Assembly: GCA_025361365.1 (NCBI GenBank)
Contig: JANYAM010000138.1
Coordinates: forward strand, 1 to 37,860
From: Opitutus sp.
GTDB lineage: Bacteria > Verrucomicrobiota > Verrucomicrobiia > Opitutales > Opitutaceae
DNA: 37,860 bases
Reading direction: 5' to 3'
Under the pieces are notes generated by a model that was not told the origin of the DNA, did no database searches, and saw only the letters and a program-made list of their open reading frames with translations. Below, piece after piece: positions 6,295-36,373 of the stretch (positions are counted from its first letter, which is position 1; every line of letters starts with the position of its first letter). Made by a program: the position numbers and the translations under genes.

Positions 6295-7276
6295 GCTCGC
6301 ATTCACCTGCGGCGATCCCGCCGGCGTCGGGCCGGAAATCATTGCGCAGTGGCTCGCCGCCCATCCCGGCGAGGCGGCCGACGTGGCCATCATCGGCCCG
6401 GCGCAATGGCTCGCGACGCTGCCCGCCGCGGGCGCGAAAATTGCGGTGGGCCTCGAGGAATCTGTCACAAAGCCCGGCCAGCCCGACGGCGAGGGCGCGC
6501 TGGTCGCCTGGGCTGCGATGGAACGCGCGGCGGCGGGCTGCAAGTCCGGCGAATTTTCCGGCGTCGTGACCGGTCCCATCAGCAAGGCCGCGCTGGCGAG
6601 GATCGGCTACGGGTTTCCCGGCCAGACGGAGTTTTTCGCGGCGAAGTGGGGCGGCGACCCGGTCATGGCTTTCTGCGGCGGCAAATTGCGCGTCGTGCTC
6701 GCGACCTGGCACGTGCCGCTCCACGAAGTTGCGCGCCTGCTCGGTCCGCATCTCCTGCACCGCACGGTCGCGGCGGCCGATGCGCTCGCGCGCGCCTTCC
6801 CTGCTGTGGGAGCTAGCTTGCTCGCGACAGGGGCAGAGTCGCGAGCAAGCTCGCTCCCACAAAATACCGGCTCTTTCATTCCGCGCATCGGCGTGTGCGG
6901 GCTCAACCCCCACGCCGGCGAGGGCGGCCTGCTTGGTTACGAGGAAAAAGACCTGCTCGATCCTGCGCTGACCCATCTGCGTGCTGAATTTCCCGGACTC
7001 TCGCTTTGCCAGCCCGGCGACACGCTGTTTGCGCGCGCGCTGCGCGGCGAGTTCGACGTGGTGGTGGCGCTCTATCACGACCAAGGGCTCGCGCCGCTCA
7101 AGGCGGTTGATTTCGACGAGGCGGTGAATGTCACGCTCGGCCTGCCGTTCGTGCGCACGAGTCCGGACCACGGCACGGCCTTCGGGATCGCGGGGCAGGG
7201 GAAGGCCAGCCCGCGCAGTTTTGCCAATGCGGTCGTCGTGGCGCGGCGCTTGATAAAATCCCGTTCCGGCGCATGA
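6284..7276 (+). CDS. pdxA: 4-hydroxythreonine-4-phosphate dehydrogenase
   Basis: Start moved to ATG 6284 (MPAKLAFTCGDPAGVGPEII) from ORF-track 6062. VTGPISKAAL, GLNPHAGEGG, YHDQGLAPLKAVDFDEAVNVTLGLPFVRTSPDHGTAFGIAGQGKA. Contains an in-frame palindromic insertion at 6805-6861. Confidence 0.93.
   Translation: MPAKLAFTCGDPAGVGPEIIAQWLAAHPGEAADVAIIGPAQWLATLPAAGAKIAVGLEESVTKPGQPDGEGALVAWAAMERAAAGCKSGEFSGVVTGPISKAALARIGYGFPGQTEFFAAKWGGDPVMAFCGGKLRVVLATWHVPLHEVARLLGPHLLHRTVAAADALARAFPAVGASLLATGAESRASSLPQNTGSFIPRIGVCGLNPHAGEGGLLGYEEKDLLDPALTHLRAEFPGLSLCQPGDTLFARALRGEFDVVVALYHDQGLAPLKAVDFDEAVNVTLGLPFVRTSPDHGTAFGIAGQGKASPRSFANAVVVARRLIKSRSGA
6805..6861. repeat. REPIN-like palindrome (GGAG class) inside pdxA
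   Basis: TGTGGGAGCTAGCTTGCTCGCGAC-(AGGGGCAGA)-GTCGCGAGCAAGCTCGCTCCCACA; 24-bp arms with 23/24 complementarity; total 57 nt. Confidence 0.85.
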
Positions 7277-9664: not shown

Positions 9665-10797
9665 ATGAGAAAATCTTCACCCCGGTTTGTGTCCGCCGTG
9701 ATCCGCGCTCGCGGTGCGGCGTTTCTGATCGCCCTCTCGGTTGTCGTCGGTCCGGTTTTGGCACAGCCCGTGACATTTGTCTCCGGCGGCGCCACCCATA
9801 GTTTGTTCATAAAGGCTGACGGCACTTTATGGGGCATGGGCTCGAATTCGGTTAGTGAACTGAGTGGCACGGGTGAGAAACTATCGCCGGCGCAGATGGC
9901 GACAGGAGTTACATTGGCGGCAGGTGGCGGCTCGCACACGGTGTTCGTGAAGTCCGACGGCACCATGTGGGGGGTGGGGGCAATGGCTATGGCCAGCTCA
10001 GTGACGGTAGCACTCAGCGCATTGATCCGCCGATACAACTCGCCACCGATGTAGTCACGGCTTCGGCATATTACCGCCATACCCTTTTCATTTTAAAGGA
10101 TGGCACGCTCTGGGCCATGGGACGCAACGAGTCGGGGGAGCTCGGCGATGGCGCTAAGCAAACCCGACGTTCTCCCGTGATGGTGGCTAGCAACGTGGCT
10201 TCCGTCTCCACCGGAAACAACTACACGATGTTTGTTAAGGCAGACGGCACGCTCTGGGCCACGGGAAGCAACGACTCGGGGCAGCTCGGCGATGGCACTC
10301 AGGATTCCCGGTTAACTCCCGTGCAGGTGGCCACTGATGTCAGGTCAGTTTCTGCCGGTTACGAGCACACGATGTTCATCAAAAGGGATGGCACGCTCTG
10401 GGCCATGGGCGCCAAGAGCGCCGGCTCATTTGGGGACGGAAATGATAGAAACTACGCGCGCCAGGTGTTGAAACCGATAAAAATTTTGGATGGCGTTGCG
10501 TCTGTATCAGTCGGTTACGGCGACGCACATACCATGCTTGTGAAGAAGGACGGCACGCTGTGGATTACCGGCTCCAATTTCAAAGGTCAGCAGGGCGACG
10601 GTGCGTCCACCGATAGATATGCTTGGAGACAGGTGGACTCCGGTGTCCTCTCGGCCTACGCGGGCAACGGCACTTCCTTTTATATCAAGTCCGATGGCAC
10701 GCTCTGGGCCGCCGGTCTAAACGAGTCGGGGCAACTCGGCGATGGCACCAAGATCGATCGCCATAGCTTCATCCGGGTGAATACCGGACAACCATAG
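9665..10797 (+). pseudogene. RCC1-repeat (alpha-tubulin suppressor-like) secreted protein split by a -1 frameshift
   Basis: ORFs 9665-10054 and 9967-10797 encode parts of one repeat protein (HTLFILKDGTLWAMGRNESGELGDG repeats). The frame is lost near 9969-9980 (G6-T-G5). Could also be phase-variable or a sequencing error. Confidence 0.7.
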
Positions 10798-14073: not shown

Positions 14074-14127
14074 GTAGGGCCGGTGCTTGTCGCCGGGCCG
14101 CGGTCCGCCGGCAAGCGGCGACCCTAC
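14074..14127. repeat. REPIN-like element, GTAG heads on both ends
   Basis: GTAGGGCCGGTGCTTGTCGCCGGGCCGCGGTCCGCCGGCAAGCGGCGACCCTAC. Confidence 0.75.
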
Positions 14128-19536: not shown

Positions 19537-20049
19537 ATGCCGACGACGCTTGCCGCGCTCAATGGCGCCGACCGCCCCGCGTTCACCGCGGCGCTCGGCC
19601 ACCTGTTCGAGCATTCGCCGTGGGTGGCGGGGCAAGGCTGGCTGCGGCGACCCTTCGCCTCCGCCGAGGCCCTGCACGCCGCGCTGTGTGCTGCCATGCG
19701 CGCCGCGCCGGCGGAATGGCAGATGTCGCTCATCAGCGCGCATCCCGACCTCGCCGGGCGCCTGGCGCAGCAAAAGAAGCTCACGGCCGAGTCCAACCGC
19801 GAGCAAGCCAGCGCGGGACTCGACCAGCTGACCGACGCCGAGCTGGCGGAATTCACCCGGCTCAACGACGCCTACAAGGCGAAGTTTGCCTTTCCCTTCA
19901 TCATCTGCGCCCGACTCAACGCCAAGGCCGCCATCCTCGCCGCCATGGCCGCTCGCCTGCCGAACGCGTGGCCGGTCGAGCGCGACACCGCGCTGGCCGA
20001 AATCGAAAAAATCGCGTGGCTTCGACTCACGGATCTTCTGAAAGCTTAG
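19537..20049 (+). CDS. uraD: OHCU decarboxylase
   Basis: 170 aa; FEHSPWVA, LISAHPDLAGRLAQ, LTDAELAEFTRLNDAYKAKFAFPFIICAR. Confidence 0.92.
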   Translation: MPTTLAALNGADRPAFTAALGHLFEHSPWVAGQGWLRRPFASAEALHAALCAAMRAAPAEWQMSLISAHPDLAGRLAQQKKLTAESNREQASAGLDQLTDAELAEFTRLNDAYKAKFAFPFIICARLNAKAAILAAMAARLPNAWPVERDTALAEIEKIAWLRLTDLLKA

Positions 20050-20138
20050 ACAGAATGAACAAAATTAACAGAATCGAAAAAAATCAGGCGGCGGCCTTGG
20101 GCAAAAACGATTCTGTCCATTCTGTTAATTCTGTCTAA
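20046..20138. repeat. Inverted repeat of ACAGAATNAACA-type words spanning the uraD-uraH junction
   Basis: Left arm TTAGACAGAATGAACAAAATTAACAGAATC (20046-20075); right arm GATTCTGTCCATTCTGTTAATTCTGTCTAA (20109-20138). Confidence 0.75.
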
Positions 20139-22389: not shown

Positions 22390-22396
22390 CAAAATT

Positions 22397-22446
22397 GGAG
22401 GGCCCAGCTCCAGCTGGGCCGCGGCTCAGCTGGAGCTGAGCCCTCC
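22397..22446. repeat. REPIN-like element, GGAG heads on both ends
   Basis: GGAG-GGCCCAGC-TCCA-GCTGGGCC-GC-GGCTCAGC-TGGA-GCTGAGCC-CTCC; the two stems differ by a compensatory pair. Confidence 0.85.
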
Positions 22447-22467
22447 ACAAGCCAAGGATCAGCGCGG

Positions 22468-23939: not shown

Positions 23940-24683
23940 ATGTCCGACCTTTTTGGCCACACCCGCGCCCGCATCGCCGCCCGCCACGCCCTGATCACGC
24001 CGGGCAACCACGTGAACAGCTCGGTGCCGGGCATCACGGGCGCGACGACGGTGGTCCTGATCAACGAGGCCATGGGCGCGAAGTTCGCGCAGCTGCTGGT
24101 GACTTTCACGGCCGACGGCCGCGCCGCGCAACCGGCGAGCGGCACGCAGACGGTCGGCTATGTCATGCACGGCGGCGGTGCCCTGACGGTGGGCAAGGAC
24201 AAGGCGAAGATCCATGAGGGCAGTTTTTTCTACGTGCCCGCCGGCCAGTCATGGAGCCTGGCTTCGCCGAAGGCCGGCACGCAGCTCACGCTTTTTCAGA
24301 AAAAATATGTCGCGCTGCCCGGCACGCCGCTGCCCAAGGCCATCATCGGTGATGTGGCCAAGGTTAAGGGCACGGCGTTCCTCGGCGACCCGGCGGCCAA
24401 CCTGCAGGTGTTGCTGCCCGACGAGCCGGCCTTCGACATGGCGGTGAACATCTTCGCCTACCAGCCGGGCGGCCACCTGCCGTTCGTCGAGGTGCACGTG
24501 ATGGAGCACGGCCTCGTCATGCTCGGTGGCGCGGGCGTCTACCGCCTCGAGGACCGCTGGTATCCGGTGCAGGCGGGCGACGCTATCTGGATGGCGCCGT
24601 ATTGTGCGCAGTGGTTTGTCGCGATGGGCAAGGTCCCGGCGAGCTATCTCTATTACAAGGATGTCAACCGTCCGGCTATTTGA
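23940..24683 (+). CDS. (S)-ureidoglycine aminohydrolase-like cupin
   Basis: 247 aa bicupin; NHVNSSVPGITGATTVVLINEAMGAKF...FNIFAYQPGG-like segment VNIFAYQPGGHLPFVEVHVMEHGLVMLGGAGVYRLEDRWYPVQAGDAIWMAPYCAQWFVAMGK. Confidence 0.88.
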   Translation: MSDLFGHTRARIAARHALITPGNHVNSSVPGITGATTVVLINEAMGAKFAQLLVTFTADGRAAQPASGTQTVGYVMHGGGALTVGKDKAKIHEGSFFYVPAGQSWSLASPKAGTQLTLFQKKYVALPGTPLPKAIIGDVAKVKGTAFLGDPAANLQVLLPDEPAFDMAVNIFAYQPGGHLPFVEVHVMEHGLVMLGGAGVYRLEDRWYPVQAGDAIWMAPYCAQWFVAMGKVPASYLYYKDVNRPAI

Positions 24684-27600
24684 CGGCCCGGCCGCCGCGC
24701 CGGCCACGCTCGACCTCATCGTCAACGGCCGCGCCGTCTCCACCGCGGGCGTGGCGCCGACCACCACGCTGCTGGCCTGGCTGCGCGCCAGCGGCCTGAC
24801 CGGTTCCAAGGAAGGCTGCGCCGAGGGTGATTGCGGCGCCTGCTCCGTGGCGCTGGTGGACCGCGACGCGAACGGCAAGCCGACCTACCGCGCCTTCAAC
24901 AGCTGCATCGCGTTGGTGCCGATGTTCGCCGGCCGCGAGATCGTGACGGTCGAGGGTCTCGCGAAATGCGGCGCCGACCAGAAACAACTTCACCCGGTGC
25001 AGGCCGCGATGGTCGAGCACTACGGTTCGCAATGCGGCTATTGCACGCCCGGCTTCGTCGTCTCGATGTTCGAGGCTTACTACCGCGACGGCTGCAAGGC
25101 CCCGTGGCAGGTCAGCGACCAGCTCTGCGGCAATCTCTGCCGCTGCACCGGCTACCGGCCGATCCGCGATGCCGCGGTCACGGCGCTGGCGGGTAGGGCG
25201 GCGACTCCGCTCGCCGCCGAGGCGCGGACGGAGTCCGCGCCCTACCAGGATCACTTTGCCACGCGGCTGCAGGTGCCGGTGCATCCGCCCGTCGCCCTCA
25301 ACTACACCGCGGGCGAGGCGAAGTTCTTCCGCCCGACGTCGCTGCCGGGGATGTTCACGCTGCTCGAGACCTACCCGACGGCCCAGCTGGTGGCCGGCGC
25401 GACCGAGATCGGCGTCGAGCTGAACAAGAAGTTCAAGGCGTTCCCCCTGCTCATCTCGACCGAGGGCGTGCCGGAGCTGACGCGCATCACCGCGACACCC
25501 GAGGCCTGGCACCTCGGCGCCGGCGCCACGCTGACCAATATCGAGGAGGCCATCGGCGCCGAATATCCCTCCATTGCGAAAATGCTCCGCGTCTTCGCCG
25601 CGCGCCAGATCCGCAACCGCGCCACGCTCGGCGGCAACCTCGTGACGGCGTCGCCCATCGGCGACAGCGCCCCGGTGCTGCTGACGCTCGAGGCGAGCGT
25701 CGTGCTCGTCACCGCCAAGGGCGAGCGCACGGTGCCGCTGGCCGATTTCTTCACCGCCTACCGCAAGACCGTGCTGAAGCCCGGCGAGGTCATGCGCGAG
25801 ATCGTGCTGCCGCGCGGCGGGCCGACCCGCGGCCTGACGCGGCGCGTCGACTTCCTGAAAGTTTCCAAGCGCCGCGAACTCGACATCAGCATCGTGGCCG
25901 CGGCGTTCTGCGTGGACCTCGACGCCGGCGGCGTCGTCCGCAAGGCGCGCATCGCCTACGGCGGCGTGGCGGCGATGCCGCTGCGTGCGCTGAAAGCCGA
26001 GGCGGCCTTGGTAGGCAAGAAGCTCAACGATCCGGCGGCAACACGCATCCTGCACGACACCTTCAAGCCGATCGACGATGCCCGCAGTGGCGCGGAATAT
26101 CGCCGCGGATTGGTCGTCAGCCTTTGGGAGAAATTTGTCTCCGGCGAGCAGAGCCAGGCGCAGGACGCAGATCTTGGTTTCGCCGGCGACAGCCGTTGGC
26201 CGGTCGAGGACGCGTCCCGAAACCTCGGCCACGAAAGCGCCGTCGGCCACGTGACCGGCCGGGCGCTGTATGTGGACGACACGGCGCAGCGCCGGAAGAT
26301 GCTCGATTGCTGGCCGGTCTGCGCGCCGCACGCCCGGGCGAAGATTTTGCGGCGCGACGCCACCAAGGCCCGGCAGGCGCTGGGCATCCATGCCGTGCTG
26401 CTGGCCGAGGATATTCCCGGCGAGAACAACACCGGCCCGGTGCGGCACGACGAGCCGCTGCTGGCGCAGGACGAGGTTCTCTTCCACGGCCAGATGGTGG
26501 CGTGGGTGGTCGGCGAGTCGCTGGCGGCCTGCCGCGCGGCGGCGGCGCTGGTTGAGGTGGACTACGAGCCGTTGCCCGCGGTGATCGGCCTGCCGGCCGC
26601 CATCGCGGCGGGCAGCTACCACACCGAGCCGCACGCGCTGACGCGCGGCGACGTGGCGACCGCGCTGGCGACGGCGCCGGCCCGGCTGGAGGGCGAATTC
26701 GAATTCGGCGGGCAGGAGCACTTTTATCTCGAGACGCACGCGGCCTGGGCGGAGGCGGGCGAGGACGGCACCGTGCTGGTGAATTCCTCGACGCAGCATC
26801 CGTCGGAAATCCAGGCCATCGTCGCCGAGGTGCTGCACCTCGCGCGGCACAAGGTCGTCGTGCAGGCCCCGCGCATGGGCGGCGGCTTCGGCGGCAAGGA
26901 GACGCAGGGCAACGGATTTGCGGCGCTGGTGGCGCTGGCGGCGGTGAAGACCGGCCGGCCGGTGCGCGTGCAACTCGACCGCGACCTCGACATGAAGCTG
27001 ACGGGCAAGCGCCACCCGTTCCACGCAAAGTTTTCCATCGGCCACGACAACGATGGGCGCCTGCTCGCCGCGCAGGTGGAACTCGTGTCGGACGGCGGCT
27101 GGTCGCTCGACCTGTCCACGGCGATCAACGATCGCGCGCTCTTCCACCTCGACAACGCCTACTACATCCCGGCGGTGCACTTCAGCGGGCGCGTCGCGAA
27201 GACCAACGTGACGTCGCACACGGCGTTCCGCGGCTTCGGCGGGCCGCAGGGCATGCTCGTCATCGAGGAGATCATCGACCGCATCGCGCGCCAGGTTGGC
27301 CTGCCGCCGGAGGTGGTGCGCGAGCGCAACCTTTACCACGGCACCGGCGAGACCAACCGCACGCACTATCAGGAAGACATTGGCGACAATCGCATCCAGG
27401 AAATCTGGGCGCAGGTGCTGGCCAAGGCGGAGTTCGCGAAGCGCCGCGCCGAGGTTAATGCCTGGAACCAGGCCAACCCGCATATGAAGCGCGGGCTGGC
27501 GGTGACGCCGGTGAAGTTCGGCATCAGCTTCACGCTCTCGCACTACAACCAGGCGGGCGCGTTGGTGCACATTTATCAGGACGGCTCGGTGCAGGTGAAC

Positions 27601-28563
27601 CATGGCGGCACGGAGATGGGGCAGGGGTTGCACACCAAGATCCTCGGCGTGGCGATGCGTGAGCTCGGCCTGCCCGCCGCGAGCATCCGGTTGATGACCA
27701 CGAGCACCGACAAGGTGCCGAACACGTCGGCCACGGCGGCGTCGAGCGGCGCGGACCTGAACGGCGCGGCGGTGGCGGCGGCGTGCGTCACGCTGCGTGA
27801 GCGACTGCTGCCGGTGGCGGCGACGCTGCTGGGTGAAACTTCACCTGTGGGAGCGACCTTGCTCGCGACTGTCGCGACCAAGGTCGCTCCCACAAATTCG
27901 GACCTGCAAGACGTCGTCTTCGAAAGCGGCGAAGTCTTCGCCCGCTCAAATCCCGCGGCCCGCCTCTCCTTCGCCCAGGTCTGCGCCAAGGCCTACACGG
28001 AGCGCGTCAGCCTTTCCACGACCGGCTTCTACAAGACACCCGGCGTGAAGTGGGACTGGGTGAAGGCCGAGGGCCGGCCGTTCCACTACTTCGCCTGCGG
28101 CGCGGCCGTGGCCGAGGTGGAGGTCGACGGCTTCTCCGGCATGCACCGGGTGCGGCGCGTGGACATCGTCCACGATGTCGGCGACTCGCTCAATCCGGGT
28201 ATCGACCGCGGGCAGATCGAGGGCGGCTTCGTGCAGGGCATGGGCTGGCTGACGCGCGAGGAATTGCGCTGGGACCCGCAAGGCCGGCTGCTTACGCACA
28301 GCGCGAGCACCTACCAGATTCCCGCGTTCAGCGACGCGCCCATCGAGTTCAATGTCACGCTGCTGCCGAAGGCCGCGCAGCCGAGCGTGGTCCACGGCAG
28401 CAAGGCCGTCGGCGAGCCCCCGCTGATGCTGGCGTTCTCGGTGCGCGAGGCGTTGCGCGACGCCGTCGCCGCGTTCGGCCAGCCTGGCGGCGAAGTGCCG
28501 CTGGCGTCGCCCGCGACCGGCGAGGCGATCTTCGCGGCGATTCAGGCGCGGCTGGCGCGCTGA
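24661..28563 (+). CDS. Single-chain xanthine dehydrogenase (2Fe-2S + FAD + molybdopterin domains fused)
   Basis: Start moved to ATG 24661. GCAEGDCGACSVAL, GYCTPGFVVSMF, LCGNLCRCTGYRPI, NRATLGGNLVTASPIGDSAPVLL, APRMGGGFGGKETQ, TAFRGFGGPQGM, HGSKAVGEPPLMLAFSVREAL. Confidence 0.94.
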   Translation: MSTVRLFDGPAAAPATLDLIVNGRAVSTAGVAPTTTLLAWLRASGLTGSKEGCAEGDCGACSVALVDRDANGKPTYRAFNSCIALVPMFAGREIVTVEGLAKCGADQKQLHPVQAAMVEHYGSQCGYCTPGFVVSMFEAYYRDGCKAPWQVSDQLCGNLCRCTGYRPIRDAAVTALAGRAATPLAAEARTESAPYQDHFATRLQVPVHPPVALNYTAGEAKFFRPTSLPGMFTLLETYPTAQLVAGATEIGVELNKKFKAFPLLISTEGVPELTRITATPEAWHLGAGATLTNIEEAIGAEYPSIAKMLRVFAARQIRNRATLGGNLVTASPIGDSAPVLLTLEASVVLVTAKGERTVPLADFFTAYRKTVLKPGEVMREIVLPRGGPTRGLTRRVDFLKVSKRRELDISIVAAAFCVDLDAGGVVRKARIAYGGVAAMPLRALKAEAALVGKKLNDPAATRILHDTFKPIDDARSGAEYRRGLVVSLWEKFVSGEQSQAQDADLGFAGDSRWPVEDASRNLGHESAVGHVTGRALYVDDTAQRRKMLDCWPVCAPHARAKILRRDATKARQALGIHAVLLAEDIPGENNTGPVRHDEPLLAQDEVLFHGQMVAWVVGESLAACRAAAALVEVDYEPLPAVIGLPAAIAAGSYHTEPHALTRGDVATALATAPARLEGEFEFGGQEHFYLETHAAWAEAGEDGTVLVNSSTQHPSEIQAIVAEVLHLARHKVVVQAPRMGGGFGGKETQGNGFAALVALAAVKTGRPVRVQLDRDLDMKLTGKRHPFHAKFSIGHDNDGRLLAAQVELVSDGGWSLDLSTAINDRALFHLDNAYYIPAVHFSGRVAKTNVTSHTAFRGFGGPQGMLVIEEIIDRIARQVGLPPEVVRERNLYHGTGETNRTHYQEDIGDNRIQEIWAQVLAKAEFAKRRAEVNAWNQANPHMKRGLAVTPVKFGISFTLSHYNQAGALVHIYQDGSVQVNHGGTEMGQGLHTKILGVAMRELGLPAASIRLMTTSTDKVPNTSATAASSGADLNGAAVAAACVTLRERLLPVAATLLGETSPVGATLLATVATKVAPTNSDLQDVVFESGEVFARSNPAARLSFAQVCAKAYTERVSLSTTGFYKTPGVKWDWVKAEGRPFHYFACGAAVAEVEVDGFSGMHRVRRVDIVHDVGDSLNPGIDRGQIEGGFVQGMGWLTREELRWDPQGRLLTHSASTYQIPAFSDAPIEFNVTLLPKAAQPSVVHGSKAVGEPPLMLAFSVREALRDAVAAFGQPGGEVPLASPATGEAIFAAIQARLAR
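25193..25245. repeat. REPIN-like element (GTAG heads) inside the xanthine dehydrogenase gene
   Basis: GTAGGGCGGCGACTCCGCTCGCCGCC-GA-GGCGCGGACGGAGTCCGCGCCCTAC; stems GGCGGCGA/TCGCCGCC and GGCGCGGA/TCCGCGCC. Confidence 0.85.
27846..27894. repeat. REPIN-like palindrome (GGAG class) inside the xanthine dehydrogenase gene
   Basis: TGTGGGAGCGACCTTGCTCGCGAC-T-GTCGCGACCAAGGTCGCTCCCACA; 23/24 complementarity; near-identical arm to 6805-6828. Confidence 0.88.
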
Positions 28564-30322: not shown

Positions 30323-30955
30323 TCAGCCCTTGAACGAGGTCCGGCGCCACTCCTGCCAGCGTTCACGGCCGGCGAACATGGGCACGGAGTCGTTGACCGG
30401 TGAATCCTTCACCAAAAGAAAATAGCGCGCGAACAGCTCGTCCGCCGTGCCCCAGGCGAAGCCGTAGGGCGGGCCCTCCGAGATCACCGGTTTCTGGTAG
30501 TAGAAATAGCCGAGCAGCGAGCCCTGGTATTTCAACAGGCTGGCCATGCGGGCGCGGTAGACCTCGCGCCGCTCCGGTAGCAGCGCGCAGAGGAAGGCGC
30601 GCTCGTAGACATAGTCGAACGAGTTGGGCACAAAATCGTGGCTGAAGAAATCCCCGAGGATGATGCGGCTCGCCAGCGCTGTGCCGTTCAGGCGGCGGGC
30701 GCGTTCGACGGCCCCGGGCGCGAAGTCGATTGCCGTGACATCGTAGCCGGCCTGGGTGAACGCCTTGATCTCGTGGCCGAGGCCACAGCCGGGAATGAGC
30801 ACCTTGCCGCGCGCCTGCGGGTTGGAACCGGTGTCCTTGCGCTTGAGGAATTCCTTCAGGTCAGCCGGCACGCCGTCAAAATCCCACGGCGTGTTCGCGC
30901 CGAGGTAGCGCGAACTCCAGAATTCCGGGTGACTGGGAGGGATGTCGTCCAACAT
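30323..30955 (-). CDS. TPMT-superfamily SAM-dependent methyltransferase
   Basis: 210 aa; HPEFWSSRYLGANTPWDFDGVPADLKEFL, GKVLIPGCGLGHEIKAFTQAGYDVTAIDFAPGAVERAR, YVYERAFLCALLPERREVYRARMASLLK, EGPPYGFAWGTADEL. Confidence 0.88.
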   Translation of the reverse strand: MLDDIPPSHPEFWSSRYLGANTPWDFDGVPADLKEFLKRKDTGSNPQARGKVLIPGCGLGHEIKAFTQAGYDVTAIDFAPGAVERARRLNGTALASRIILGDFFSHDFVPNSFDYVYERAFLCALLPERREVYRARMASLLKYQGSLLGYFYYQKPVISEGPPYGFAWGTADELFARYFLLVKDSPVNDSVPMFAGRERWQEWRRTSFKG

Positions 30956-32701: not shown

Positions 32702-32733
32702 GGTAGGGCGCGGACTCCGCTCCGCGCCCTGCC
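32702..32733. repeat. Single REP-like hairpin with GTAG head between convergent genes
   Basis: GGTAGGGCGCGGA-CTCCGC-TCCGCGCCCTGCC; 12/13-bp stem. Inner sequence closely matches the right REP of 25193-25245. Confidence 0.75.
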
Positions 32734-33285: not shown

Positions 33286-33297
33286 GAGAAGAGGAGT

Positions 33298-33366
33298 CAC
33301 CACGAAATACACCAAATACACGAAAGAGTCGGATTGGTTTTGGTGTATTTCGTGTGTTTCGTGGTG
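33298..33366. repeat. Inverted repeat of CACGAAATACAC-type words in the sufD-sufT spacer
   Basis: CACCACGAAATACACCAAATACACGAAA ... TTTTGGTGTATTTCGTGTGTTTCGTGGTG. Confidence 0.8.
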
Positions 33367-33372
33367 ATCAAG

Positions 33373-36273: not shown

Positions 36274-36373
36274 GAACGCTCAACGTCCAACGCTCAACGT
36301 TGAACTTTTAAGTGAAGAAGAACGGGCGGCGGGCATTGAGCGTTAAGAGTTAAGCGTTGAGAGTTGAGCGTTC
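36274..36373. repeat. Inverted repeat of ACGCTCAACG-type words in the sufC-sufB spacer
   Basis: GAACGCTCAACGTCCAACGCTCAACGTTGAAC ... TTGAGCGTTAAGAGTTAAGCGTTGAGAGTTGAGCGTTC. Confidence 0.75.

Follow-up and report, generated by a model that had tools for sequence, protein, structure and literature searches.

In a fused xanthine dehydrogenase (xdh) from an Opitutus sp., the linker joining the Fe-S to the FAD domain is confirmed to contain a REPIN that preserves the reading frame. It is very probably a mobile element accommodated by a tolerant linker, one of the same few protein loops that resident REPIN families have repeatedly colonised across the genus. The element belongs to a family dispersed through its genome, the same position is empty in some same-genus orthologs and filled in others, and the gene tree requires several changes between these states. 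Because the palindromes present at this spot in relatives are different ones and unrelated to it, a few protein loops appear to serve as repeated landing places for such elements.

The REPIN in the xdh linker

The window, by which the whole analysed stretch of 37,860 nucleotides is meant, encodes xdh as an ORF of 1300 residues, running by translation from the ATG at 24661, which overlaps the end of the upstream cupin gene, to a stop codon ending at 28563 (Table 1). Pfam domains Fer2, Fer2_2, FAD_binding_5, CO_deh_flav_C, Ald_Xan_dh_C, MoCoBD_1, and MoCoBD_2 were detected, the protein scores above the cut-off for the NCBIfam models xanthine_xdhA and xdhB, and all expected domains are present. 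Genes for an M20 peptidase, an amidohydrolase, and the cupin precede xdh, and the set looks like a purine-degradation cluster.

Table 1. Coordinates of xdh and of the palindromic elements discussed, as positions in the window.
Feature	Position	Strand	Basis
xdh, fused xanthine dehydrogenase (2Fe-2S, FAD, and molybdopterin domains)	24661..28563	+	translation, Pfam, NCBIfam
Class A REPIN GGTAGGGC...GCCCTACC, 55 bp, in frame as GRAATPLAAEARTESAPY	25192..25246	.	
Variable-arm REP hairpin GTAGGGCGGCGACTCCGCTCGCCGCC	25193..25218	+	sequence, family comparison, DNA fold
Constant-arm REP hairpin GTAGGGCGCGGACTCCGTCCGCGCC	25221..25245	-	sequence, family comparison, DNA fold
Class E REPIN (TGTGGGAGCGA..TTGCTCGCGAC dimer), in frame as VGATLLATVATKVAPT, same xdh	27846..27894	.	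repeat I6, pattern search, ortholog alignment
Class E REPIN in pdxA ORF	6805..6861	.	repeat search, pattern search; PdxA by Pfam
Constant-arm class A REP, not in frame in any gene by the test used	32703..32730	+	

The insert, GGTAGGGCGGCGACTCCGCTCGCCGCCGAGGCGCGGACGGAGTCCGCGCCCTACC, follows the second 2Fe-2S domain and precedes the FAD domain, opening with GGTAG and closing with CTACC. It is composed of two inverted REP hairpins with their GTAG heads directed outward, an arrangement that fits the structure of a REPIN. Folded as DNA the element forms two hairpins (z -3.7), and folded as RNA it forms a single long hairpin (z -4.2) that is more stable than the two separate ones.

A GTAG-headed REPIN in frame at positions 25193-25245 had been proposed in a first-pass annotation of this DNA, and the sequence, its translation, and the copies elsewhere in the genome all bear this out; the place was right, and the full element (25192-25246) proved to be one base longer at each end. 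The same annotation had described two stems of different sequence, each internally complementary, so that structure was kept while sequence varied. The stems are indeed as described, but they differ because nearly every class A member is built in this way, and the pairing of a constant with a variable arm is the design of the whole family rather than a structure-preserving change at this site. A local compensatory change in the xdh stems was accordingly rejected. The pdxA element had been assigned to a class distinct from that of the linker REPIN, correctly, since it is of class E; a second copy of the pdxA class, in frame in the same xdh gene at 27846-27894, had been overlooked.

The class A family and its copies within genes

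A genome-wide search for the repeat, as the first-pass annotation had advised, located the hairpins elsewhere: the 17-base motif GTAGGGCG-NNNN-CTCCG is matched exactly at 75 places in the 3.56 Mb genome, compared with 0 for its reversed control. In the window, allowing up to two mismatches, eight matches were found versus 2.6 expected. Among the regions taken, 39 paired units were extracted, showing a dispersed family of high copy number. About 30 of the 39 combine a constant arm, either CGCGGACTCCG or a sequence differing from it by one base, with one variable arm (G-T-G, G-C-G, G-G-C, etc.), each variable arm having its own matching complement, and the other nine form a second family with GAATCC-type arms.

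The census of in-frame copies took in 59 places with the class A motif, retrieved region by region, 11 of which fall inside an ORF with coding-like codon use on both sides. Seven of these 11 are dimers, all in one frame (GRA-x-TPL), in xdh, mfd, lpxB, gcvP, mutL, tatD, and mnmA, genes that are unrelated to one another; in-frame palindromic inserts are thus present in unrelated protein genes. The GGGCAC variable arm is found in four of the seven intragenic dimers, numbers too small for a bias between intragenic and intergenic copies to be interpreted. Single motif copies occupy four further places, in genes for a DEAD-box helicase, a TsaD-family protein, a NuoG-like protein, and a TPMT-like methyltransferase; the last of these, at window position 30464, may be a chance match, since the sequence there shows no matching stem.

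The identical frame in all seven genes, together with the strong RNA fold, could be taken as a sign that the linker peptide or the mRNA hairpin is selected for a function in linker length, translational pausing, or mRNA stability. However, the carriers are unrelated proteins with unrelated functions, close orthologs lack the element, and half-REPIN and decayed states exist. The shared frame is also explicable without such a function: of the two remaining frames of the class A dimer, one is open and yields an arginine-rich peptide and the other contains a TAG stop, so survivorship suffices. Selection for a function therefore appears most improbable. Many insertions would have occurred, with only the in-frame ones in tolerant loops persisting.

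The linker in same-genus orthologs

Comparison of the linker covered 13 same-genus xdh genes, with the window genome designated G000 and the linkers of G008 and G015 being ambiguous. In four of the 13 the linker is empty (G010, G018, G006, and G003), and in two it holds a class A element (G000 and G011). Class B (GTAGGG..GCTTGC) occupies the linker of G012, G016, and G004 and is present as a half element in G009, while the G014 linker carries class D (GGTGGA..GGACG). Presence of an element thus differs between relatives, and the orthologs do not keep the linker residues, whose conservation would have spoken against the first-pass reading. In the G009 gene (L040, C172), where half of a class B REPIN is left, the Fe-S and FAD parts no longer share one reading frame, whether because the gene is truly split or because the assembly is wrong at the hairpin.

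Each linker family is dispersed in the genome of its own carrier. Class A has 87 copies in G011; class B has 77 copies in G012, 57 in G016, 43 in G004, and 11 in G009; and class D has 18 copies in G014. Class D was first recognised in the G014 linker and is dispersed in 13 of 21 genomes, with 0 matches for the reversed control.

On the xdh gene tree, a protein tree built without the linker, carriers pair with relatives in a different state: G011 with the empty G006 (99/98), G016 with the empty G003 (100/100), and G000 with the class B-bearing G012 (92/92). The four linker states require at least seven changes on this tree, and the AU test rejects a single clade of the two class A carriers and likewise a single clade of the class B carriers.

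The class A elements of G000 and G011 are alike at 50 of 53 bases and sit at the same codon, which may reflect shared ancestry with repeated loss, or transfer. Recombination between species that carried the linker segment together with its REPIN would account for the shared element and for the similar left flank (88-95% over 180 bases), but the right flank of this pair is just 57% identical over its first 60 bases, and the left flanks of G011 and G006 are about as close as those of G000 and G011. Recombination would also leave the other re-used sites, with their differing families, unexplained, and is considered very improbable. For G000 and G011 in particular, a transfer of the linker is unsupported on the right side by local identity.

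Other re-used coding sites

The second xdh site is empty in six or seven same-genus orthologs, with exactly 18 nt between the anchors. Its class E element occurs also in G018 and G006, a GGCTTTACGCC type is found in G014 and G009, and G012 holds a decayed element. In gcvP, mutL, tatD, and mnmA, one loop each contains different REPIN families or none depending on the species, the case of mutL being the weakest. Re-use by different elements was thus observed at all six coding sites tested (the xdh linker, the second xdh site, gcvP, mutL, tatD, and mnmA).

A common origin, in which a single ancient insert per site diverged into palindromes of different appearance, would explain why the elements of many species lie at almost the same codon. 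It has a precedent, as the authors of the Rickettsia japonica study preferred it for RPE-4, -6, and -7 (PMC3767692). Here, G012 and G009 share the right-hand flank CCCTACAACCGATCA of their class B element, and therefore some class B copies were probably inherited. As a general account it is quite improbable, however, because the heads, loops, and stems of the linker elements differ (GTAGGGCG..CTCCG, GTAGGG..GCTTGC, and GGTGGA..GGACG), each type being multi-copy in its own genome, and because the closest relatives have an empty linker and the empty second xdh site has exactly the same length in those six or seven orthologs.

In genomes other than that of the window, inverted repeats were detected in 30 of the 92 such loops, compared with 8.8% of random segments, a contrast whose significance is not to be taken at face value, as the 92 loops are non-independent and were chosen as filled in the window genome. 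With the window genome excluded, loop occupancy correlated with REP copy number by one automatic criterion (rho 0.65, p 0.002), and the other criterion disagreed (rho 0.22, p 0.35), so that the two together do not establish a dose dependence.

Nearly every filled tatD site begins directly after a conserved TGG (Trp) codon, and several empty tatD sites read GGTGGG at that point, resembling a REP head; some empty linkers likewise resemble head-plus-tail remnants. These features would suit a target preference of the RAYTs, or an attraction of new REPs by existing ones, which would add to repeated colonisation of tolerant loops rather than exclude it. In loops of only a few codons, however, frame and tolerance already limit the available positions, and the motif is not common to the empty sites in other genes; such a preference is therefore rather unlikely. 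It is unlikely, too, that a small, nearly saturated set of loops in this genus acts as shared landing sites at which one REPIN family takes the place of another at the same nucleotide, with RAYTs recognising a REP-like target or an existing REP.

Tolerance of the insert and its presumed mobilisation

In matches to solved XDH structures, the insert residues are unaligned and lie between the stretches that match the Fe-S and FAD domains. Residues 171-180 of the AlphaFold model, which hold most of the insert, have a mean pLDDT of 56, the minimum of the chain, for which the mean is 89. According to the repeated-colonisation account, the REPIN would be a mobile palindrome that is non-autonomous and presumably depends on a resident RAYT (Y1/HUH transposase) for its movement, and it would have entered xdh at an interdomain linker able to tolerate it. 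Its retention would be due to a length and frame that do not disrupt the reading of the protein, with about 18 residues added to a loop without fixed structure; the insert is probably nearly neutral and its peptide presumably translated. The same few loops would then be colonised time and again by the resident REPIN families of each genome, elements being lost or decaying in the intervals.

The genome has seven Y1_Tnp genes. As judged by eye, at least five of them have inverted palindromes of their own kind on their flanks; in one case these are class D REPs and in another REPs of the related GTAGGGCGGG type. None of the seven is a RAYT with exact class A REP flanks; the C171 RAYT comes closest to class A, but the loop of its REPs differs. 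The assembly consists of 297 contigs and may not include the gene that mobilises class A.

Relation to known systems

GTAG REP dimers located in frame inside ORFs were surveyed in 2013, with the highest number in Opitutus terrae; at about one site in Xanthomonas recB, different REPs were also reported (PMC3733652). The present elements resemble those cases in their GTAG head, their head-to-head dimers, their in-frame position in unrelated genes including those of DNA repair, and their occurrence in the family Opitutaceae. Unlike in that survey, one site is here compared across some 12-20 genomes of the same genus, with different REPIN families or none, and this for six sites. In-frame intragenic REP dimers are therefore already known, and what is added is the multi-family, multi-site, and multi-species comparison.

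The organisation of an inverted REP pair as a unit, with several families per genome, is shared with the REPINs of Pseudomonas described by Bertels and Rainey (PMC3116915, PMC8049555). In Pseudomonas the RAYT genes are flanked by matching REPs, which is partly the case here (class D and GTAGGGCGGG), whereas for class A no such gene was found among the seven. Moreover, the Pseudomonas REPINs are treated as mainly extragenic (PMC3116915, PMC8049555), whereas the present ones lie inside proteins.

Rickettsia palindromic elements (RPEs) also insert in frame in unrelated genes (PMC10969869), and different RPE groups have been found near one locus of orthologs, for which a hotspot and a common origin were both named and common origin was preferred (PMC3767692). 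The Opitutaceae elements are similar on both counts, being in-frame palindromes in unrelated genes with different groups near the same locus. Membership in the RPE family was rejected: RPEs are Rickettsiales elements of about 100-150 bp, whereas those described here are GTAG REP dimers of about 55 bp, in a genome that has RAYTs and whose nearest named relatives are Opitutaceae. In contrast to the preference expressed in PMC3767692, the class differences observed here point to repeated insertion, and the sequence comparison favours insertion into tolerant loops over divergence of one ancestral insert, which bears on the choice between hotspot and single diverged insert left open in the Rickettsia literature. 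For the question of how proteins gain new segments from short mobile palindromes, the linker is a clean natural experiment, and because several families hit the same linker in close species, it becomes possible to ask how far RAYT target choice, as against survival in tolerant loops, determines where they are found.

Additional repeats

Other repeat families seem to use the gcvP loop as well, which contains a non-palindromic, pyrimidine-rich repeat of CTGTCCTCCGACCTCCGTCC type in G014, G017, and G003 (L226, L234, and L235) and a CTCAACTCTCAAC repeat in G006. In the mutL linker of G000 and G014 (L201 and L203), a GCAGGGAGCAGGGAGCGGGGAGCAGGGA repeat, read as REQGAGSRE, adjoins the REPIN site. 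Within the window, a class B type REP pair (GTAGGGCCGGTGCTTG / GTAGGGTCGCCGCTTGC) is intergenic at 14074-14127, shortly past the end of an ORF, and inverted repeats of other types, including CAACGCTCAACG-like and CACGAAATACACCAAATACACGAAA-like ones, are present at 20046-20138, 22396-22447, 33297-33367, and 36274-36373. Positions 10099-10386 comprise two tandem 144-base copies with 71% identity.
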